Source: Lysobacterales bacterium
Lineage (GTDB): Bacteria; Pseudomonadota; Gammaproteobacteria; Xanthomonadales; SZUA-36
Length of the DNA: 35,931 nucleotides
Direction of reading: 5' to 3'
Assembly: GCA_009692275.1 (NCBI GenBank)
Contig: SHZL01000002.1
Span: 1-35,931 of the forward strand
The notes under the pieces are model-generated. The model did no database searches. It was not told where the DNA came from and saw only the letters and a program-made list of their open reading frames with translations. Positions 10,472-25,721 of the stretch are shown in pieces; the first letter of the stretch is position 1, and every line of letters starts with the position of its first letter. The position numbers and the translations under genes were made by a program.

Positions 10472-11077
10472 TCACGGGGTGCCAGATGGTATGAGAGTGG
10501 CAATGACGTGTTCGATGTACGCGTCAAATTCTTCACTGCTCAGGTTCGGGGTTTGATGCTGGCGTTGCAGTTGCAGGTAACCAAGATAGACCGAATACGT
10601 CAACCTCGCCTGGTTACTCGCCTGACCCTCGGGCATTCCCATTTCGCGGAAGGCCGCTGACAGGTGCGCCATGCGTCGATTGGCGACCCGTTCCAGGACG
10701 GGTTCTACTTGTGGATGGCCTGCTGCCGCGCACAGGGCGCTGTAGACTTCGTGGGTCAGCTTTTCTTTTCCCACCCGGCGAAAAAATGAAATCAGGCGAT
10801 CACGTGGCTGATCAATTTCTCCCAGTGACTTGCTGAGATTCCGCGCATCGTGTTCTTCCCAGCGCTGCAAGGCCTGTTCCAGCAGGGATTCGCGATTGGG
10901 AAAATGCCAGTAGAAGCTGCCCTTGGTGATTCCCATGCGCCGCGCCAGTGGTTCTATGGCCACTGCTTGCACGCCTTTTTCCGCAATCAACTCGACCGCT
11001 GCTTGCGCCCAGTCGGCCGCTGATAGCGTAGCTCTTTCGTTCTTGGGCGTTGTCTTTGCTGCTGCTCTGGCCGTCAT
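10472..11077 (-). CDS. TetR/AcrR family transcriptional regulator
   Basis: N-terminal HTH AVELIAEKGVQAVAIEPLARRMGITKGSFYWHFPNRESLLEQAL. Likely start MTARAAAK... overlaps the upstream gene's stop (ATGA); the ORF track extends further, to 11113. Confidence 0.88.
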   Translation of the reverse strand: MTARAAAKTTPKNERATLSAADWAQAAVELIAEKGVQAVAIEPLARRMGITKGSFYWHFPNRESLLEQALQRWEEHDARNLSKSLGEIDQPRDRLISFFRRVGKEKLTHEVYSALCAAAGHPQVEPVLERVANRRMAHLSAAFREMGMPEGQASNQARLTYSVYLGYLQLQRQHQTPNLSSEEFDAYIEHVIATLIPSGTP

Positions 11078-12876
11078 GCGTTGCCCTCCTGAACCATCAG
11101 CTTCTCCCAGCATTGCATAAGTCTGCTCTCCAATTCCCGGGTGAAGCTGCTCGCATCCATCAGGGGCGAGGACAACATACGCTGTCGCAAACCCGTGCGC
11201 AGCGCGACCAGTTGTTCCGGGTTGCCGGCCAGCCCGATGGCAGCGCGGATGTACCCGCTTGCGCTGTTCTCCACCAGGGACCCCAGCCCCAGACCGGCCA
11301 ACAGGCTTGCTCCGACCCTCGACCTGTGATCCTTTCCGGCCCTGCTAACTACCGGGACTCCCATGATCAGGCTCTCGCAGGTCGTAGTTGTACCATTATA
11401 GGGAAAACTATCCAGGGATATGTCTACCCGCGCGTAAGTTTCCAGGTGGCTTTGCTTGTCCGCGACAACACCCAACAGTTCAACCCGCCCGGCGTTGATG
11501 CCAAGTTGTGCGAAGGCAGCCAAAATTTCCTGTCCTGGTGCTGCGTACCCCAACGCAATATTTTTCAGCAGGAGGCGTGAGTCCTTCACTCCGTGCAAGA
11601 TTTCAGCCCAGGTGTGTAACAAGGCCGTATTGAGTTTCGCCATGCTATTGAATGAACCAAACGTGATATAGCCTGATTTCAGGCTGGGAGATGGAGCGAC
11701 ATCGGGCAAGTTCCCGCCGGGCTGGTACACCGAAAATGCGCCTGGCATGTGCAACAGTTTCTCACTGCACAGTTCCCGGGCATCATCCGGTGGGTCGGTT
11801 ACCTCGTCCACGATGCGGTAATCCACGGACTGCAAACCCGTGGTGTTGGGGTAGCCGATCCAGGTCATTTGCAGGGCAGCGGCACGCATCGCCAGCACGA
11901 CCAGCCGGTTACCCTTGGTGTAGCCATTGAGATCAATGAGGATGTCAATGCCATCAGCCATGATGGCCGAACGCAAGGCGGCATCAGGCAAGGCCTGAAC
12001 AAAATGGAACTGCTTTACCAGCCTTTGCGCCCGGCGCGTGGTTTCATCCACCTGCTCATGGTTGTAGTACAGGTAGACCTCAAAGCGGTTCCGGTCATGG
12101 TGTTCCAGTACCGGCAGGATGAAGTGCGCTACCGGGTGGTTTCTGCAATCTGACGACAAATACCCGATGCGCAGCGGGCGATTGCTGTCGCGGCTGGTGT
12201 TGAATACCTGGGTAAATACCTGGGCGGGCTGGCGCAAGTGCTGCTCCAGCCAGGCGCCGCAATCCCGGTGGGCCTGGGCAATGTCGCGGGCAGTGGCAGA
12301 TGTGCTGTAGTTGAGCGAAAAAACAGAGTTCATTCGCGCGAGGATGTTGTCCGGATTCAAAGCCAGCGCTTGGTGGAATAGCTGAATCCGCCGATCGCTC
12401 CCGGTGAAGTTGGCGAGGGCAGCACATCCGAGGTTGTACCAATTGTCGCTGAAGTTGACCGCATGCGCTGATGGGGGAGAACTGAACGCATCCGGTGCTT
12501 TGGCTTCCCATGCCAGCAGGCTGCGCTCCAGCAGTTCCAACTCGGCCGTGCACGCGTACATGCCTGCTTGCTGTAGCTGCCTTGAGCCCGGGTACTCGCC
12601 TGCAGCGGTCTCACAGGCCTGAGCCGCTGCTGCAACATCCAGTGCTGCCTCGCCGTCCGCGGCGTTTGCAGAAAATGCAGGGTCACTCAGCCGTATGGCT
12701 TCCTTGTAGGCACTGACGGCCAGCTCCAGTTGTCCCGAAAGCTGCAACCGCACCCCTTCGAAATACTGTGCATTGGGCCGGGCCTGTGCTGTCCCGGCGG
12801 GCGGCGCCAGCAGCCCATGGCAATGCTTGAACTTCTTGCCGCTGCCACAATGGCAAGGCGCGTTTCGGGCAGTCAT
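11074..12876 (-). CDS. SEC-C zinc motif + O-GlcNAc-transferase (SPINDLY/OGT)-like glycosyltransferase
   Basis: N-term MTARNAPCHCGSGKKFKHCHG is a SEC-C motif; C-term RPLRIGYLSSDCRNHPVAHFILPVLEHHDRNRFEVYLYY...DILIDLNGYTKGNRLVVLAMRAAALQMTWIGYPNTTGLQSVDYRIVDEVTDP is the OGT C-terminal domain. Confidence 0.88.
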   Translation of the reverse strand: MTARNAPCHCGSGKKFKHCHGLLAPPAGTAQARPNAQYFEGVRLQLSGQLELAVSAYKEAIRLSDPAFSANAADGEAALDVAAAAQACETAAGEYPGSRQLQQAGMYACTAELELLERSLLAWEAKAPDAFSSPPSAHAVNFSDNWYNLGCAALANFTGSDRRIQLFHQALALNPDNILARMNSVFSLNYSTSATARDIAQAHRDCGAWLEQHLRQPAQVFTQVFNTSRDSNRPLRIGYLSSDCRNHPVAHFILPVLEHHDRNRFEVYLYYNHEQVDETTRRAQRLVKQFHFVQALPDAALRSAIMADGIDILIDLNGYTKGNRLVVLAMRAAALQMTWIGYPNTTGLQSVDYRIVDEVTDPPDDARELCSEKLLHMPGAFSVYQPGGNLPDVAPSPSLKSGYITFGSFNSMAKLNTALLHTWAEILHGVKDSRLLLKNIALGYAAPGQEILAAFAQLGINAGRVELLGVVADKQSHLETYARVDISLDSFPYNGTTTTCESLIMGVPVVSRAGKDHRSRVGASLLAGLGLGSLVENSASGYIRAAIGLAGNPEQLVALRTGLRQRMLSSPLMDASSFTRELESRLMQCWEKLMVQEGNA

Positions 12877-15730: not shown

Positions 15731-16414
15731 ATGGGAGGAGTCGCCAGGGTGAAAGCGTGGAGCGCGGCGAACACAGGCCACGACGAGGACCAGAACCTGG
15801 TTACGTTGGCGCTTGGCGGTGACGTTCCGGCATTTGAGTCGCTGTATCGCCGTCATCGTGACCGCGTACATGGCCTGGTGTGGCGTCTGTGCGGATGCAA
15901 CCAGGCGCTTGCGGAGGACGTGTTGCAGGAGACATTTGTGCGGGCCTGGACCAAGTTGCATTTGTTTCGTGGCGAAAGCCTGTTTGGCACCTGGTTACAC
16001 CGCCTGGCGGTAAATGTTGCGCTGAGTGATCGCCGCATTCGAGTTCGCCGGGCGAGGTTTGAATCCAGCCGCGATGAAACGGCGGAGCGGACAGCAAGCG
16101 GTCATCGTGATGTTCATGCCGCGGATCACCGGGACCTGGAAAGGGCGATCGCCGGGTTGCCCGAGCGCGCCCGCCTCACTGTTGCGAGCATGAGTGGTGA
16201 CGTCCGGTTGCAACTCCCCTCCGGGCAACAGGCAGAATACACCGCACAAACCTTCAGTGGCGACATTGAGTCGGGTTTTGGTGAAGTATCAGGGAATTCC
16301 CGCGGACCGGGCCACTCCCTGTCATTGCATGCGGGCGACAACGGAGCCACCATCCAGATTGAAAGCTTCAGCGGTGACATCAACATCACTGGCCCCAATA
16401 TCACTGCGCCTTGA
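15731..16414 (+). CDS. Chimeric ORF: ECF sigma factor region 2 fused in frame to the C-terminal part of a DUF4097-type protein
   Basis: N-term FESLYRRHRDRVHGLVWRLCGCNQALAEDVLQETFVRAWTKLHLFRGESLFGTWLHRLAVNVALSDRR (sigma-70 region 2), DLERAIAGLPERAR (start of region 4), then abruptly LTVASMSGDVRLQLPSGQQAEYTAQTFSGDIESGFG...IQIESFSGDINITGP (DUF4097 SGD repeats). Confidence 0.82.
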   Translation: MGGVARVKAWSAANTGHDEDQNLVTLALGGDVPAFESLYRRHRDRVHGLVWRLCGCNQALAEDVLQETFVRAWTKLHLFRGESLFGTWLHRLAVNVALSDRRIRVRRARFESSRDETAERTASGHRDVHAADHRDLERAIAGLPERARLTVASMSGDVRLQLPSGQQAEYTAQTFSGDIESGFGEVSGNSRGPGHSLSLHAGDNGATIQIESFSGDINITGPNITAP

Positions 16415-16749: not shown

Positions 16750-19731
16750 ATGACAAATAACCGTAATCCTCTGTACCAGGCACTGCAGTACGCGCTGGTT
16801 CCTGGCGCAATGGCGAGCTTCGCTCTCGCCTCGTCAACTGTTTTCGCACAGGACAGTGGTGACGAAGAAAGTAGTACCCTTGAGCGTGTCCAGGTAACCG
16901 GTTCACGCCTCGTCCGCATGGACATCGAAGGCGCCAATCCGGTAACCGTATTGGATCGTGATGATATTGCCCGCACTGGCGTAACGGACCTCGGTAATCT
17001 GCTGCAGGACCTGCCGATGATGAGTGGCTCGCCCACTTCAACCCAGCGCAACAACGGTGGTAGCGGCCAGGTAGCCGTCGATATCCGTGGTATGGGTACC
17101 AACCGCACCCTGGTTCTGGTTAACGGCAACCGCCTGCCTTCGCTGTTCAACGACTTCTCGGTCATCCCGGTGGTCATGGTAGAGCGCATCGAAATTCTTA
17201 AGGATGGTGCTTCGGCCGTGTACGGCGCCGATGCCGTGGCTGGCGTGGTCAACATCATCACCCGCCGTGATTTCCAGGGCGCAGAAGTCCAAGGCCAGAT
17301 GGGCCAAAGCTTTGATTTGGGCGGCATGAACTACTCCACCAGTTTTATCACGGGTGGCAATTCAGATCGCGGAAATTTCGTGATCGGTGCGGAATACGTA
17401 CGGCAGGAATCTATCCTGCTGGCCAAGTACAAAGAAGACTTCTTAAAGACATCGGTTACGGTGTATGACCCGGTGGGTTTCCATGAGTTCGGATTCCAAG
17501 AAGGTCCGGGTGTTGATGGAGACGGCAATGGCATCGTTGACTGGATCACCTTGGGATCAAGCCGCCGTGCGAATGGCAGATTTACCATTGCCGGTATTGC
17601 TGGGTCCAAAACGATTTGTACGGATTCAGCAACGGGTGGCGCCTCGGTCACTGACTATGGCCCGGCCAATGGTGTTTGCGGTCCGGCTACGTATGATTAT
17701 GCACCCACCAACTACATGCAAACGCCCTACGAGCGCAGCAGTTTCTTCGGCCAGGCCGACTACGAGCTGTTTGACAATGTAACGGCCACCTTGGAAACGC
17801 GATTCGCCAACCGCAGTTCGTCCCAGCAACTGGCGCCCACACCCTACGACTCGCGTTTCGACCCGAGCTATGCCAGTGTCGTGCCTGGCGTGGTCGTGCC
17901 TGCTAATAACTACTACAACCCGTTCGGCGCCGACATAACCCAATGGCGCCGTCGCATGGTGGAAGACGGGCCTCGCCTGTTTGAGCAGATCGTCCATGAA
18001 TGGCAGATTATTGCCGGACTGACCGGTGATATCGGCGACTCCTGGACCTGGGATTTGAGCTACAACTACGGCCAGAATGACCGTTCCGACACAGATTATG
18101 GCCAGTACAGCGGTTCTCGTCTGGCCAAAGCCATGGGTCCCTCCTTTCTTGACCCGGCGACTGGCCGGGTAACCTGTGGCACGCCAGGTGCCCCGGATCC
18201 GGATACGGCTTGTGTTCCACTGAATATCTTCACCAACCCGGTCAGCAATCCCATTACCGAGGATATGCTGAACTACATAGGGGTTCCTTTGAATGATCGC
18301 TCCCAAAACGTTCGCCAGGTTACCAACCTGACGTTTATGGGTAACGCCTACGAACTGCCGGCCGGCCCCCTGGGCGTCGCCGCTGGTTTTGAGCGACGTT
18401 CAGAGGCTTACCAGTACATACCTGATTCCGGCAAGGCAACCGGGGCTGTGACCGGCAATGTCGGCATGGGCACCAAAGGGCAATATAACGTTGATTCCTT
18501 CTTCGGCGAAGTCAATGTTCCGCTGCTGTCAGGGGTCACGGGAGCTGAAATGCTGGAAATCGGTGTCAGTGCCCGTTACGACGATTTCTCAATTTTCCCC
18601 TCGTCCACGACCTGGCAGTTCGCGTTTCGCTGGAAACCGGTTAACGACCTGTTGATCCGGGCAACCGCGGGTAACGTGTACCGCGAGCCGAACGTCTCCG
18701 AGCTGTTTGGCGGTATTGGCGACAACTTCCCCACGACATCCGACCCATGTTCAGGCCAGGGTGGTACCCCGGGCTGTGAGGATGTTCCTGTCGGCTATGT
18801 GCAAAGCGACTCGCAGTCACGTACCCGCGCTGGCGGTAATATCAACATTACCCCGGAAGAGGGCGATACGTTCACTACCGGCTTGGCCTGGACTCCGGAA
18901 TTCGCGGACGGTTTCAGCATGACGCTCGACTATTGGAAGATCAAGATCGATGACGCCATCAACATTCCATCTGTCAACGTGGTGCTGGCGGGCTGCTACA
19001 ACGGAGCCGTGCCTGAATACTGCGACGATATCGTGCGATTTGGACCGGAGTCTCCGGATTACGGTGGACTGGATTACACGCTCACCCTGGTGCAAAAAGT
19101 GGGCCCCGAATCGGCTTCAGGTATTGACTGGCAGATGAACTACAGTAGGGATACCGACATTGGTCTGTGGGATTTCGGTTGGTATGGCACCTACAACCTC
19201 TCGCGTGAACAGCTTACCCTGAAGGATTTTGACGGTGATGGCCTGTACTCGGCTGAAATTGCCGACTCCGTGGGACAGTATGAACACCGGTCACTGGGCG
19301 GGTCAGCGTCCTATCCCGAGTGGCGCTGGATGTTCAATACGGACTGGTCCCTGGGTGACTGGGGTGTGAGCCTGAGTATTGAATTCATCGACGGCGTAAC
19401 CGAATGTGGCAGCCCCAATGCGGATGCGACATACCTCACTATGTATTGCCCGGACGATCCGCAGATCGTGAGCATCGACCCGGCTGATACCTACCAGAAA
19501 ATTCCGCTTATCGACCGTGCCTGGATCAATACCACCAAGGACAAGTACTACGTTGACCTCGTGGGTCATTACACGGTGCCGGTTTGGGGTACGGAGAGTT
19601 CGGCAGTTATCACCAACCTGTTTGACGTAGCTCTGCCGTTCCTGAACTACGGCTTCAACGCCACGACGGACTCAGACACCTATCGTGCTTTTGGACGGTC
19701 CTGGTTCCTCAACGTGACTCACAGCTTCTGA
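16750..19731 (+). CDS. TonB-dependent outer-membrane receptor
   Basis: Signal peptide, TonB-box-like ERVQVTGSRL, plug domain (ILKDGASAVYGADAVAGVVNIITRRDF), C-terminal beta-barrel ending ...FGRSWFLNVTHSF. Confidence 0.95.
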   Translation: MTNNRNPLYQALQYALVPGAMASFALASSTVFAQDSGDEESSTLERVQVTGSRLVRMDIEGANPVTVLDRDDIARTGVTDLGNLLQDLPMMSGSPTSTQRNNGGSGQVAVDIRGMGTNRTLVLVNGNRLPSLFNDFSVIPVVMVERIEILKDGASAVYGADAVAGVVNIITRRDFQGAEVQGQMGQSFDLGGMNYSTSFITGGNSDRGNFVIGAEYVRQESILLAKYKEDFLKTSVTVYDPVGFHEFGFQEGPGVDGDGNGIVDWITLGSSRRANGRFTIAGIAGSKTICTDSATGGASVTDYGPANGVCGPATYDYAPTNYMQTPYERSSFFGQADYELFDNVTATLETRFANRSSSQQLAPTPYDSRFDPSYASVVPGVVVPANNYYNPFGADITQWRRRMVEDGPRLFEQIVHEWQIIAGLTGDIGDSWTWDLSYNYGQNDRSDTDYGQYSGSRLAKAMGPSFLDPATGRVTCGTPGAPDPDTACVPLNIFTNPVSNPITEDMLNYIGVPLNDRSQNVRQVTNLTFMGNAYELPAGPLGVAAGFERRSEAYQYIPDSGKATGAVTGNVGMGTKGQYNVDSFFGEVNVPLLSGVTGAEMLEIGVSARYDDFSIFPSSTTWQFAFRWKPVNDLLIRATAGNVYREPNVSELFGGIGDNFPTTSDPCSGQGGTPGCEDVPVGYVQSDSQSRTRAGGNINITPEEGDTFTTGLAWTPEFADGFSMTLDYWKIKIDDAINIPSVNVVLAGCYNGAVPEYCDDIVRFGPESPDYGGLDYTLTLVQKVGPESASGIDWQMNYSRDTDIGLWDFGWYGTYNLSREQLTLKDFDGDGLYSAEIADSVGQYEHRSLGGSASYPEWRWMFNTDWSLGDWGVSLSIEFIDGVTECGSPNADATYLTMYCPDDPQIVSIDPADTYQKIPLIDRAWINTTKDKYYVDLVGHYTVPVWGTESSAVITNLFDVALPFLNYGFNATTDSDTYRAFGRSWFLNVTHSF

Positions 19732-19753
19732 TGTATTTGGGCTGAAGAAAGAC

Positions 19754-19787
19754 AAAAAAGGCCCCGCCGTTGTGCGGGGCCTTTTTT
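19754..19787 (+). terminator. Rho-independent terminator downstream of the TonB-dependent receptor
   Basis: AAAAAAGGCCCCGC-CGTTGT-GCGGGGCCTTTTTTT perfect stem with poly-T; A-tract makes it potentially bidirectional. Confidence 0.93.
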
Positions 19788-19805
19788 TGGTGTGCCTTAA
19801 CACCC

Positions 19806-21284
19806 TCAAGCGCGATACAAGGAATGCTCCCGCAAGGTGGTGCGCATTAGCCACTTTTGGCCGAGCTGTACAGGGCAGCCGTGATGCAGTGATTGAGCAT
19901 CCGGTGTGCCTGCAGGTGTAACGTTAAAGTGCAGGGTTGCCATCCCGGTTTCATACACGACGGACAGCCCGGAATGGTCATACACCGTTTCACCACCGGC
20001 TTCAGGCGCCTGTAGGCACAGCAGGAATGTGACCAGGCGCTGTCCGCTGAAATCCTTCAGCACCTTGCGGTTACGTTCAATTTGCTCCTGGCTGAAAAAG
20101 TCCACATGGGAGTGGTATTCCTCGCCCGGTTCATAGGCAATGATGGAACAGGGTTCAATCGTGTCCACGGTGTGTGCGCAATGCTGCGCAATGCGGCGCT
20201 CCACCGTGCGCACGACAGCATCCGAAACCAGGGCCCCCAGCGGGCATCCGCGGCCCGTGAATTGCGAGTTCTCAGTCAGCCCGGCGAGTGTCTTGCCGGT
20301 GTACTGCTCCGGTTGGGCCAGCGCTCCCCTGGCCACGTAGATCAGGTGGGCACATTCCTCCCGGGTCGCAAAGTTTCGACATATGGTTACCCGTGGGCTT
20401 TGCGCCAGTTGTTCCCAGCGCAGCGCTGGAGATGCAACAGCAGCTTGTGCGCCAGCCTTTACGGTCAGTCGCCCCAGCCCATCCAGGTGAATCCCGGGAT
20501 GACCCAGGGAGGCAAAATGAGATTCCACCCTGGGGATGATGGGTTTACGCGAGAAGTCTATGGTGATTCCTTCTTGCAGGAGTTGCTGCAACAGGGGCCT
20601 GGCAGCAGCATGATTCTGCTTTAACGCGGCGTACCAGGTTGACGCGGATTGGCCACATTCGCTGTCTGGCGCCAGTGCGTCGGCCGCGTGCAAAGCATCA
20701 GGATAGCCCGCGTCATTGGCACGGAGCAGCAGGGCGCGGGCAAATCCCGCATCACGAGTCACACCTGCTCCCAAGGCAAAGCGCAAGCCCAGCGAGTAGT
20801 AGGCGGGTGGATAAGCCAGGGTGCAGGCTCGGGCAAATGCGCTCGCGGCTTCAGTTTCTGTATGGTCCTCGCCATACAGGTAAGCCACATCCCATGCGGC
20901 GCGTTGGAAACCAACATCCGCCAGGCCTTGCAGCAGGGTAATGGCTTTGGCGCGGGAATAAGGCACACCCAGTCCGCGCAGATGCAGGTTTGCCAGCCGA
21001 TCAATGGCGGGCGCAACTCCGGCGCTTGCTGCGCGTTCCAGCCAGCGGGCGGCTTCGGCATGGGCGCCGGGCAGTGCTGTGGCCTGGATGTAATAAACCC
21101 CCAACAGCCACTGGGCTGCGGCACCATGGGATCCCTCAGCAAGCCCCAGCAGTATGTTCAGCCCCCGCTGGCACTGGTCCGAATCTGCCGGGAATTCAAT
21201 TAAGTGGTTCGCCAACTCCATGCGGGCATGGCTATTCCCGCTGAGCGCGGCCCGTTCGAGTGCTGCTAAATCGGCCCCGGGCAT
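19806..21284 (-). CDS. Sel1-repeat + prolyl-4-hydroxylase-type 2OG-Fe(II) oxygenase
   Basis: Sel1-like repeats (AARWLERAASAGVAPAIDRLANLHLRGLGVPYSRAKAITLLQGLADVG) then a P4Hc domain with HxD (YHSHVDFF), distal His (SLHHGCPV) and KWLMRTTLRE. Confidence 0.88.
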   Translation of the reverse strand: MPGADLAALERAALSGNSHARMELANHLIEFPADSDQCQRGLNILLGLAEGSHGAAAQWLLGVYYIQATALPGAHAEAARWLERAASAGVAPAIDRLANLHLRGLGVPYSRAKAITLLQGLADVGFQRAAWDVAYLYGEDHTETEAASAFARACTLAYPPAYYSLGLRFALGAGVTRDAGFARALLLRANDAGYPDALHAADALAPDSECGQSASTWYAALKQNHAAARPLLQQLLQEGITIDFSRKPIIPRVESHFASLGHPGIHLDGLGRLTVKAGAQAAVASPALRWEQLAQSPRVTICRNFATREECAHLIYVARGALAQPEQYTGKTLAGLTENSQFTGRGCPLGALVSDAVVRTVERRIAQHCAHTVDTIEPCSIIAYEPGEEYHSHVDFFSQEQIERNRKVLKDFSGQRLVTFLLCLQAPEAGGETVYDHSGLSVVYETGMATLHFNVTPAGTPDAQSLHHGCPVQLGQKWLMRTTLREHSLYRA

Positions 21285-21510
21285 AAAAGTCGATAGTTCC
21301 CTTGTCCGCGATTGCGCGATGAGTGTTTCAAGAATATCTGCTTGGTGTGGCAGTATACCTGAAAGAAATAGGCTCCCGTCCGGTGCAAAGCCCTGGTGGA
21401 ATTGAGGGAAGAAAGAAGGGCTATACTATGGGCATCCCCTGAACCGGGCAGCCCCGGAACGGGACTGGAAACAGCAAACGGTCTTTAACGCAGCAGCAGT
21501 CTCGATCTGA

Positions 21511-22476
21511 ATGAAACTTCCACGTGAATTTATCCAGCTTCTGCTTACTTTTGATGCAGAAAGAATGGCGGATGAAGTTCGGGCTTTGCCCGAAAGCGCC
21601 TGGCAGGCGCACCCTACGGGTTACCCGGGAAATCGTGCCGTGCCCCTGGTATCCGTGCGGGGAGAACAAAATGACCTTTTTGCCGGGCCTATGGCCGCCA
21701 CTTCCTGGCTGAAGCAGTCACCCTACCTGTGGCAGGTGCTGGCAAGCTTCCAGACCGTGTTCGGGCGCTCGAGGCTGATGGGGCTTGCCGGTGGCAGCGA
21801 GGTTCCCATTCACAGCGACGTTAACTACCACTGGTATTCACGGGTCCGAATCCACATACCCGTGATTACCTTCCCTGAGGTAAGGTTTTATTGTCATGAC
21901 CAGTCCGTTCACATGGCCGCTGGCGAGGCGTGGGTTTTTGACAATTGGAAAATGCATCGCGTAGTTAATCCGACGGAGCATTTCAGAGTGCACCTGGTGG
22001 CTGATACCGTTGGCTCGTCGCTGTTCTGGAACATGATCCAGGAATCACTGGACAGCAAGAGCCATGAGCTGACCAGGCGATTGCTTGCGTTCAACCCTGA
22101 TGCAGCGCCCAAGCTCAAATTGGAACGAATCAATGTCATGGACGTGATGCACCCGGTTGAAATGGAAGTGCTTGCGGAAGACTTGTTGGCCGATCTGCTT
22201 GCGTCAACTGCTGAAAACAACACAGCCGAGGCAGTGCAGCGATTTGTCGCTTCAGTGCGCGGACTTTACCAGGACTGGAAATGCCTGTGGGCCATGTTTG
22301 GCGCCGATGCAGCTGGCTGGCCACTATATGAACGGCGGCGTAATCGAACACTGCGGGAACTCTACTCGATCAAAACTCCGCTGGTGCTGCACAGCACGGG
22401 CGTCGCTGCAACGCCTGCAATGAAAGCCCGGGTGCTTGGGTCTTGCTTGAGCACGCCTCTTCCTGAAACGATTTGA
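21511..22476 (+). CDS. Aspartyl/asparaginyl beta-hydroxylase-family protein
   Basis: GSEVPIHSDVNYHWYSRVRIHIPV...MAAGEAWVFDNWKMHRVVNPTEHFRVHLVADTVG matches the Asp/Asn beta-hydroxylase (PF05118-type) pattern. Confidence 0.85.
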   Translation: MKLPREFIQLLLTFDAERMADEVRALPESAWQAHPTGYPGNRAVPLVSVRGEQNDLFAGPMAATSWLKQSPYLWQVLASFQTVFGRSRLMGLAGGSEVPIHSDVNYHWYSRVRIHIPVITFPEVRFYCHDQSVHMAAGEAWVFDNWKMHRVVNPTEHFRVHLVADTVGSSLFWNMIQESLDSKSHELTRRLLAFNPDAAPKLKLERINVMDVMHPVEMEVLAEDLLADLLASTAENNTAEAVQRFVASVRGLYQDWKCLWAMFGADAAGWPLYERRRNRTLRELYSIKTPLVLHSTGVAATPAMKARVLGSCLSTPLPETI

Positions 22477-23249
22477 ACTCCCAGGCAAAGATTCGCATTG
22501 TCCACCACATGGCGCGTACCGGTGGCACGGTGATCTGCCGCTGCCTGGCCTCAATGAAGAGCGTGGTACTGCTGAGCGAAATTCATCCCCTGGGCACACA
22601 AACGTTCAACCCGGTGCACCAGGCACACGCGTGGTACGGCTTGCTCAACAAGGAGGATCTGGATTCCGCTCGCAGCGGCCGCCTGAGCTTTCTCGAAACC
22701 ATTGAACTCATCTCACGACGCTGCAGCGAACAAAACAGGATCCTGGTGTTGCGCGACTGGAGTCACCTGGATTACACCGGTGTACCGTTTACCCAACCAG
22801 GCTACCGTTCCCTGCTGGCCGAAAAGCTTCAAGCCTCTTTTGCATTGGTTCGATACTCCACGGTACGCCATCCCCTGGACCAGTGGCTGAGCGTGGCGCA
22901 GCAACCGGTATTCCGGGAGAGGTTGGGGCCAGCGCGGTTCCTGCGGGGCGCCAGCCGCTTTGCCGAAGCTGCGGTGCGGACAGGATTTATGCGATTTGAG
23001 GATTTTACCCGCGACAATGATACGGCCCTGCGACAACTGTGTGCCGGGCTGGAACTTGAGTTCGACTCCGGATACCGGGAAAAATGGCCGGCTTACACCC
23101 GTGTTACCGGCGATGTACTGCCGGGGCGCGGCAGCGGCGCCCACATCACACCCTTGCCGCGCCAGGCTATGGATGAAAATGACAGGCGCAGGTTTTGCTC
23201 GCTGCCGCAGTACCAGGCCATCATCAACAAGCTCGGCTATGGCGAGTGA
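22473..23249 (+). CDS. Sulfotransferase-like P-loop protein
   Basis: N-term HHMARTGGTVICRCLASM resembles a sulfotransferase 5'-PSB loop; later STVRHPLDQWLSV resembles the 3'-PB region. TTG start overlaps the upstream stop (TTGA). Confidence 0.68.
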   Translation: MNSQAKIRIVHHMARTGGTVICRCLASMKSVVLLSEIHPLGTQTFNPVHQAHAWYGLLNKEDLDSARSGRLSFLETIELISRRCSEQNRILVLRDWSHLDYTGVPFTQPGYRSLLAEKLQASFALVRYSTVRHPLDQWLSVAQQPVFRERLGPARFLRGASRFAEAAVRTGFMRFEDFTRDNDTALRQLCAGLELEFDSGYREKWPAYTRVTGDVLPGRGSGAHITPLPRQAMDENDRRRFCSLPQYQAIINKLGYGE

Positions 23250-23324
23250 AGTCTTTGGAATTTCCCTGAGCATGGGTGGTGGCAGGTATAATTGCTGCGA
23301 TGCAGGTTCATGGCAGATTGTGTG

Positions 23325-23918
23325 ATGGAAGATTTTTTTGGCATCTATGACAAGGCTCTGAACGCCGAACTATGCCAGGATATTGTGCAGCGCTTTGAAA
23401 ATGACCCGCGCAAGTCTCGTGGAAAAGTGGGTGAGGGTCGCTATCGTCCGGATTTCAAAGGCACGATGGAAATTGATCTTGCCGACATCCGCCATGGCTG
23501 GGAGGACGTGATCAACACCGTCAACCAGAGCCTGATGTTCTATTTACGGCAATACATGAAAAAATGGACTGAGGCGTTCAAATCGGTCGAAGTGCACCAC
23601 GAGGGGTTTCGCGTAACCCGTTACAATCCCGGCGAGCAATTTGATTGGCATTCGGACAACATCGGTGGCACCTACACCCGGGTGATGACGGCGATGTGGT
23701 ATTTGAACACGGTGGAAGAAGGCGGCGAGACGGATTACAAATGGATGGGGCGGGCAATCAAGCCGCTGGAAGGCCGGCTGATAATTTGCCCGGTGGGTTG
23801 GCCCTATTTTAATCGTGACAATCCACCCGTTTCAGGCCCCAAATACACCATCATCACCCAGTTGCATCAACAGCGCCGGGTGCAGAAGCCCGTAAGCTCT
23901 TCAAGCACTGCCGTTTAA
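23325..23918 (+). CDS. 2OG-Fe(II) oxygenase-family protein (distal His apparently substituted)
   Basis: VTRYNPGEQFDWHSDNIGG...RVMTAMWYLNTVEEGGETDY...GRLIICPVGWPYFNRDNPPVSGPKYTIITQL. HxD present. Track start is 23292; ATG at 23325 (MEDFFGIYDKAL) is the more plausible start. Confidence 0.83.
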   Translation: MEDFFGIYDKALNAELCQDIVQRFENDPRKSRGKVGEGRYRPDFKGTMEIDLADIRHGWEDVINTVNQSLMFYLRQYMKKWTEAFKSVEVHHEGFRVTRYNPGEQFDWHSDNIGGTYTRVMTAMWYLNTVEEGGETDYKWMGRAIKPLEGRLIICPVGWPYFNRDNPPVSGPKYTIITQLHQQRRVQKPVSSSSTAV

Positions 23919-23968
23919 AGCGCGGCAGATAAGCAGGTCCCGGTGAATTACGTAACGGAGCGAGACCT

Positions 23969-25003
23969 GTGATCGATCTCACCTCGCCGGACTGGTTACT
24001 TGCGGGCTTCGACCAAGGGCGGGAACTGTTCCAGTTCGCCCGGGTTTCACGCCAGACCTACCGCGATTCATCCTTCCTGGATCATCGCATCAAACCGATG
24101 CCGGAACGCGTGACAACGGCCACCGGCAGTGAGGTCGATTTGACCCTCGGCAAACTGGCTGGCCGCCGGGCGGCCTATGTTTTTCACACGGCTTTTTGTG
24201 CTTCCACCCTGTTGGCTCTCTGCCTTGATCACCCGGGCCGGGCGCTGGTTTTGCGGGAACCCAAGGTACTTGCACGCCTTGGTGCGTTGCAACGGGACAC
24301 ACCCTCTGCTGGTTCAGTGCAGATGGGGCGACTGAAACAGCGTGTTTTCGGATTGCTGGACCGCAGCTACGAGGGGGAGGTCGTGGTCATCAAGCCGTCG
24401 AATTTCGCCAATTCGCTGGTGCAGGACGTGCTGGATGAAAGGTCCGGTGCTGGCGCGCAACACCAATGCCTTTTGCTAAGCAATGGTTTGCGCAACCTGA
24501 TCATTTCAATACTCAAGAATGAGCCCGAGGCGCGGGAACGAATGCCCGTGTTCCTGGAGGCCCTGCTCAGGGACAGCGATTACCTTGAGCGCGCCGGCCT
24601 GCCTCCATTGGAATCTCTGGACTTGCTGCAGCAAAGCACAGTGTTCTGGCACTGCCAGCGGCATTTCTTCCAATGCATCAAGAGTCCGTCCGGCAGCCGG
24701 CAAGTGCTGCCGGTAAGCATGGAGACATTTTTACTCCGGCCTTTAGACACGCTGCTTGCGATCAATGAGTTTCTGCAACTCGGTTTGAGCGAAGCGCTCT
24801 TGAATGAAGTTGTAGTACGGGGCGCATTCCGTCAGCACTCCAAGACCGGCGCGGGGTATGGCCCGGAGCAGCAACATTTGGAAGCGCAAGCCATTGCACA
24901 ACGGCATGATGCTGAAATTCGCCGCACCATGAAATGGGCCACACTTTTGTTGCGCGCCATGCCCGTTGAACCGTTTTCGGACGACGAAGAAGGATTCGCC
25001 TGA
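23969..25003 (+). CDS. Sulfotransferase-like protein (divergent)
   Basis: AAYVFHTAFCASTLLALCLDHPGRALVLREPKVLARL resembles the 5'-PSB region of a sulfotransferase-like family (HTxFCxSTLLA...LREP). Confidence 0.58.
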   Translation: MIDLTSPDWLLAGFDQGRELFQFARVSRQTYRDSSFLDHRIKPMPERVTTATGSEVDLTLGKLAGRRAAYVFHTAFCASTLLALCLDHPGRALVLREPKVLARLGALQRDTPSAGSVQMGRLKQRVFGLLDRSYEGEVVVIKPSNFANSLVQDVLDERSGAGAQHQCLLLSNGLRNLIISILKNEPEARERMPVFLEALLRDSDYLERAGLPPLESLDLLQQSTVFWHCQRHFFQCIKSPSGSRQVLPVSMETFLLRPLDTLLAINEFLQLGLSEALLNEVVVRGAFRQHSKTGAGYGPEQQHLEAQAIAQRHDAEIRRTMKWATLLLRAMPVEPFSDDEEGFA

Positions 25004-25008
25004 GCCTG

Positions 25009-25029
25009 TAAAAATTGCCCTTTCAGGGC
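25009..25029 (-). terminator. Intrinsic terminator-like hairpin overlapping the stop codon of the downstream minus-strand gene
   Basis: On the minus strand: GCCCT-GAA-AGGGC followed by AATTTTTA; the TGA stop (25025-25023) sits within the stem/loop. Confidence 0.6.
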
Positions 25030-25721
25030 TGGTCCTGCCATCTGAAACTGCAGTTCGCCGCCACGGTGATGCGCGCAGACGTGCCAAAATAGGGCGTCAC
25101 TTCATGTTGCACGAATGAAGGGAACACCAGCAGGTCGCCCGGCCTCATTTCGTAGTTTATGGAGCCAACATGGTGGGGTTTTTTCCAGTTCTCGTTCCCC
25201 GGATCACGGTACATGTTGGCATTGGTCCTGGGATCCTTGAAATTGAGCACTCCGCCTTTGGGCATAGCAGCGGCTTGCTCGCCGGGATCTACCATGTATA
25301 CCGCCGACCAGGAAGCATTGGGATGCGTATGGCTGGAAATGTACCCGCCAAAATGCGTGAGGTGATACCAGGCATCCGTTATGACCTTCAGTCGGTCGCA
25401 CTCCTCGATTGAGTACCCGTTGGTTGCAGTGACCGCATGCACGATGCCGTGCAGGAAAAACATCTTCAATTCCTGTATGGCCCGGTTCGGGTCTTTGAAC
25501 AAATCGAACGAGCTTTCGAATATCCGCACCTGGTTGCTGGGGATGTACTCCGGGTTGCGGTACTTCTCCCCTTCTGACTCCTGCGCAAGAATGAATTTTT
25601 TCAGCTCAGTGTTGAGCAGACCCGGCTGCGGATAACGCGACGAAAATACCGGTGTGGAAAAGTCTCCCCAACCAGTAATTTCGGGTTTTGCTGACGGGTT
25701 TGATGCTGGCGGGTTCGACAT
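25023..25721 (-). CDS. Putative 2OG-Fe(II) oxygenase, TIGR02466-like
   Basis: AWYHLTHFGGYISSHTHPNASWSAVYMVDPGEQ...GVLNFKDPR...MRPGDLLVFPSFVQHEVTPYFGTSARITVAANCSF. Confidence 0.83.
   Translation of the reverse strand: MSNPPASNPSAKPEITGWGDFSTPVFSSRYPQPGLLNTELKKFILAQESEGEKYRNPEYIPSNQVRIFESSFDLFKDPNRAIQELKMFFLHGIVHAVTATNGYSIEECDRLKVITDAWYHLTHFGGYISSHTHPNASWSAVYMVDPGEQAAAMPKGGVLNFKDPRTNANMYRDPGNENWKKPHHVGSINYEMRPGDLLVFPSFVQHEVTPYFGTSARITVAANCSFRWQDQP

Follow-up and report, generated by a model that had tools for sequence, protein, structure and literature searches.

What are four oxygenases and two sulfotransferases doing beside an outer-membrane receptor? The question is raised by positions 16750 to 25721 of the window, that is, of the whole 35,931-nucleotide stretch of DNA analysed here, which belongs to the genome of a Lysobacterales bacterium, assembled from a metagenome to 2.2 Mb and 66% completeness. 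An earlier note on this DNA placed here a TonB-dependent receptor (TBDR), four proteins of the 2-oxoglutarate (2OG) oxygenase type and two sulfotransferase-like proteins; Pfam, NCBIfam and profile searches find all of them in place. It went on to propose a coordinated pathway of hydroxylation and sulfation, adding that it knew of no function assigned to the combination, and our search of the open-access literature likewise found no description. We report that the association of these genes is real, conserved and apparently undescribed, and we consider what the enzymes may modify.

Genes and active sites of the locus

The TBDR (993 amino acids, 16750-19731, plus strand) matches the Pfam Plug and barrel domains with 79.7 and 89.5 bits, both above the cut-off. 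P4H (492 amino acids, 19806-21284, minus strand) joins Sel1 repeats to a P4H-like 2OG-Fe(II) oxygenase domain of the 2OG_Oxy_3 type (PF08238 and PF13640, above cut-off). Four plus-strand genes then stand in tandem. They encode AspH, of the Asp/Asn beta-hydroxylase family (Asp_Arg_Hydrox, PF05118; 321 amino acids, 21511-22476; 50.6 bits, cut-off 22.6); the PAPS sulfotransferase-like ST1 (258 amino acids, 22473-23249); OXY3, a 2OG-Fe(II) oxygenase (2OG_Oxy_3, PF13640, 36.5 bits; 208 amino acids, 23292-23918); and the divergent sulfotransferase ST2 (344 amino acids, 23969-25003). The gaps between them are -4, 42 and 51 nt, AspH and ST1 overlapping by 4 nt, and because of this tight spacing we take the four to be an operon. 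T2466 (232 amino acids, 25023-25721) lies, like P4H, on the opposite strand; it scores 64.9 bits against TIGR02466 (cut-off 62.5) and 66.9 bits against 2OG-FeII_Oxy_5 (PF13759).

Are ST1 and ST2 sulfotransferases at all? Neither reaches the Pfam sulfotransferase cut-off: ST1 scores 14.4 bits against 27, and ST2 has no match. ST1 does carry the 5'-PSB and 3'-PB motifs for PAPS (RTGGTVICRCL and VRHPLDQWLS). When family profiles built in the present analysis were compared with the PDB, the top match for ST1 was the CurM sulfotransferase (E 1.4e-7), and ST2 matched the structures of STF1, CurM, SULT1A1 and TPST (best E 9.8e-8). Aligned by hhalign, the two families reach 81-97% probability against verified sulfotransferase profiles, including 95% for ST2 against one verified domain, and less than 1% against an oxygenase profile. 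We conclude that both are real but divergent sulfotransferases whose catalysis is predicted from sequence. A PAPS kinase is encoded in the same genome.

The oxygenases differ in their iron and 2OG sites. H101, D103, H149 and R159 of AspH are invariant in a 15-sequence alignment, so that its HxD motif, distal His and Arg are all kept, and P4H has HxD at 393 and His at 467/468. OXY3 has an intact HxD and an incomplete HxD...H triad: its distal iron-binding position is Asn174 (codon AAT at 23811), as against His in 25 of 26 sequences, the window's alone having Asn. The window's OXY3 thus probably lacks a complete iron site; it may be inactive or altered, or Asn174 may be an assembly error. The TIGR02466 family, T2466 and its homologues included, has an HxH motif (HNHP or HTHP) where HxD is expected, and its metal site may therefore be formed by three histidines.

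Two neighbouring features deserve mention. An ECF sigma gene adjoins the TBDR, as it also does in loci L032 and L067. In the window this reading frame (15731-16414) holds sigma region 2 only, which runs on into the C-terminal end of a DUF4097 protein. In L032 and L067 the two parts seem to be separate genes, the first and the third of a complete set of three next to the TBDR, so the window has probably suffered an internal deletion. Some 4 kb before the TBDR on its upstream side, at 11074-12876, is a SEC-C, TPR and GT41 (OGT-like) glycosyltransferase, which we dropped as a cassette member after seeing no relatives of it in other annotated loci.

Linkage of hydroxylases and sulfotransferases across bacteria

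Lack of conserved co-occurrence was one of the points on which the earlier note said its proposal would fall. We find the three partners, hydroxylase, sulfotransferase and TBDR, side by side again and again across taxa and in many arrangements, and the first two are repeatedly fused. When the AspH alignment was run against 85,462 species genomes, it gave 80 loci in named genomes, spread over Gamma-, Alpha- and Betaproteobacteria and Planctomycetes. In 41 of these a sulfotransferase domain is fused to the AspH homologue, in 33 a separate sulfotransferase gene is found no more than 1.5 kb away, and in 6 there is neither, giving 74 of 80 with one or the other. The sulfotransferase may be upstream, downstream, convergent or fused, a variety that is hard to explain by a single accident passed on by descent. 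Pfam checks of representatives find PF05118 and PF13469 in single proteins, two of which also contain DUF4915. A TBDR is present at a distance of about 6 kb or less at no fewer than 35 of the 80 loci (32 by a broadened TBDR profile plus L210, L223 and L168 by Pfam; a narrower profile, which missed divergent receptors, gave 24) and is absent within 6 kb at more than half, some of which end at contig edges.

Several of these loci are more elaborate. Steroidobacteraceae and their allies have a recurring fixed cassette of TBDR, TPR-sulfotransferase, OXY3, TPR-AspH, AspH::ST and small AspH. In Asticcacaulis biprosthecium the TBDR is followed consecutively by a PF03567 sulfotransferase, a small AspH, a TPR-sulfotransferase and AspH, and each enzyme gene overlaps the next or is separated from it by 3 nt. 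Locus L219 groups a TBDR with P4H, OXY4, ST2, TPR-AspH, AspH::ST, TPR-ST, OXY3b and OXY5.

Is this linkage a general property of the PF05118 fold? The 20 PF05118 loci taken as controls turned out to form two groups, of which the 12 LpxO-like loci are the true control; none of the 12 has a sulfotransferase or TBDR nearby. Members of the second subfamily, about 190 amino acids long, have a sulfotransferase in 24 of 28 loci, and in 20 of the 28 a TBDR accompanies it; these loci come mostly from the window's own family and are counted, as elsewhere, with profiles built from the loci themselves and Pfam checks of representatives. The triad of small AspH, sulfotransferase and TBDR is likely to be the core of the system.

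Clustering is also far above chance for the window's other enzymes. Among 100 relatives, pairs within 12 kb number 8 for OXY3 and TBDR (0.14 expected), 7 for ST2 and TBDR (0.14), 5 for T2466 and TBDR (0.15), 6 for OXY3 and P4H (0.06) and 6 for T2466 and P4H (0.11); the expectation assumes uniform placement, and the p-values are optimistic because related genomes are not independent.

The window's exact set of six enzymes is another matter. The earlier note had asked whether all six accompany TBDRs across taxa; we saw this set in the window only and found no second example. Its nearest relative, in genome G009 of the same family, keeps T2466, ST2, OXY3, ST1 and TBDR in conserved order beside hemE and has two additions, a gene resembling methyltransferases and one for another small, ST33-like protein; AspH lies elsewhere in that genome, and P4H has no match in it. 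Other genera of the family carry a different cassette at the hemE site, made of TPR-sulfotransferases, ST2 and a 2OG oxygenase, to which L032 adds a methyltransferase and a TBDR. From these differences in content we take the site to hold a modular, variable cassette.

Together, the AspH/sulfotransferase fusions, the TBDR linkage, the small-AspH triad and the clustering far above chance lead us to read the window as an elaborated version of a recurrent module of TBDR, hydroxylase and sulfotransferase. The recurrent linkage and the fusions lend partial support to the coordinated pathway first suggested; the parts that hold less well are P4H and T2466, which have family members with no TBDR nearby, and OXY3 with its doubtful iron site.

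The substrate of the enzymes

What would such a module modify? TPR domains are fused both to hydroxylases and to sulfotransferases, which suggests polypeptide substrates. At L047, L048 and L147, in the window's genome and in G009, an AspH and sulfotransferase pair stands directly 3' of genes labelled secDF-like from a reading of their sequence. For both reasons we favour a polypeptide destined for the cell envelope, and among such polypeptides we suspect the receptor next door first of all. In an AF2 model of the L167 fusion (pLDDT 90; pTM 0.54, which leaves domain placement unsure), the predicted N-terminal half resembles cis-Pro-4-hydroxylase and human AspH, and the predicted C-terminal half resembles CurM, TPST1/2 and heparan 3-O-sulfotransferases.

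Our preferred reading, held at somewhat less than even confidence, is that the locus is an elaborated TBDR, PF05118 hydroxylase and PAPS sulfotransferase module for hydroxylation and then O-sulfation of a polypeptide. Since 2OG and PAPS are cytosolic, the enzymes most likely act in the cytosol. The hydroxylases would place a hydroxyl group on side chains (Asp/Asn, perhaps Pro), and the sulfotransferases would then O-sulfate these before export, an order suggested by the gene fusions. The likeliest substrate would be the cognate receptor, possibly another surface protein, with the additional oxygenases and sulfotransferases making further marks. Such marks might affect the choice of ligand, or might protect the cell against phages or bacteriocins for which the receptor is the target. 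The narrower claim, that bacteria write hydroxy-O-sulfate marks on an outer-membrane TBDR by means of a hydroxylase and a sulfotransferase, often in one polypeptide, we consider doubtful, if a serious possibility.

The receptors themselves give a mixed answer. Among the window receptor's 40 closest TBDRs, 18 have a sulfotransferase or 2OG gene within 6 kb; among 31 distant ones only 3 do (Fisher p 0.0015). In the TBDR tree the window's clade has seven members, all cassette-linked if both receptors of the G009 locus are counted, one of them not being within 6 kb; outside this clade the cassette label switches at least 15 times. Comparison of the receptors found no residue clearly specific to those with a cassette. 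The best Asn/Asp candidates (N102, N321, D633 and D959) were rejected as such marks, being weak and confounded by descent. At L049, L050, L052, L053 and L190, AspH::sulfotransferase fusions (one with DUF4915) lie beside giant beta-helix, DUF4347 or Calx-beta adhesin-like proteins, which in the first four loci take the place of a TBDR; these giant neighbours are possible candidate substrates. Modification of a polypeptide is made less secure by the lack of a clearly cassette-specific residue, by these adhesin neighbours, by the loci, more than half, with no TBDR within 6 kb and by the finding that the best-scoring solved relative of the hydroxylase acts on free L-proline.

That last result also speaks for the main rival to receptor modification. 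The enzymes could instead decorate a small ligand, either a secreted peptide or a compound derived from amino acids, which would serve as metallophore or signal and be taken up again by the cognate receptor. Sulfated methanobactins are the precedent: their operons can contain genes for a sulfotransferase and an ECF sigma factor together with a TBDR (PMC3621798). The ECF genes beside the TBDR in the window, L032 and L067 fit this account. We nonetheless think it rather unlikely: MbnB (PF05114) was not found in the 66% complete genome, a look through the gaps of the locus found no short ORF shared with G009 that could encode a precursor, and a Pfam scan saw no peptide synthetase at the locus. 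The failure to find MbnB or such an ORF makes a methanobactin system in particular less likely.

It is improbable that the targets are nutrients or toxic compounds taken up from outside and treated as in drug metabolism. Hydroxylation followed by sulfation is a known order of detoxification, and TBDRs import diverse compounds; however, the TPR fusions point to polypeptides, and a Pfam scan finds no catabolic genes in the cassette. Least probable is that TBDR loci merely collect accessory genes with a shared place and no shared pathway, for although P4H and T2466 relatives can be far from TBDRs, cassette content varies and the label changes often on the receptor tree, the repeated fusions in varied arrangements, the empty LpxO-like controls and the family-wide triad argue against it.

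If the preferred reading of hydroxylation and then sulfation is right, an uncharacterised pathway is present in many proteobacteria, among them cultured members of Asticcacaulis, Brevundimonas, Steroidobacter and Colwellia. In many carriers it is tied to receptors through which nutrients, but also phages and bacteriocins, enter the cell. The pathway would yield either a modification of a new kind or sulfated ligands of a new class. The hydroxylase-sulfotransferase fusions offer a direct, testable handle.

Comparison with known systems

The locus resembles methanobactin (mbn) operons, with their MbnS sulfotransferase and TonB-dependent transporter, in uniting a sulfotransferase and a TBDR with an ECF sigma gene nearby. 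It differs in having 2OG oxygenases, relatives with hydroxylase-sulfotransferase fusions, and neither MbnB nor a precursor peptide that we could find. Unlike TBDR loci with SapC or tryptophan halogenase, it shows neither SapC nor PF04820 among the ten neighbours scanned. Its hydroxylase shares the PF05118 fold, the HxD...H motif and the Arg with human AspH, L-proline cis-4-hydroxylase and LpxO, and its TPR-fused relatives resemble human AspH in particular. Unlike the LpxO-like controls, the hydroxylases described here occur in fusion or linkage with PAPS sulfotransferases and TBDRs. The sulfotransferase half of the fusion has the predicted fold of the tyrosylprotein sulfotransferases TPST1/2; unlike them, the sulfotransferase here is linked to a hydroxylase.
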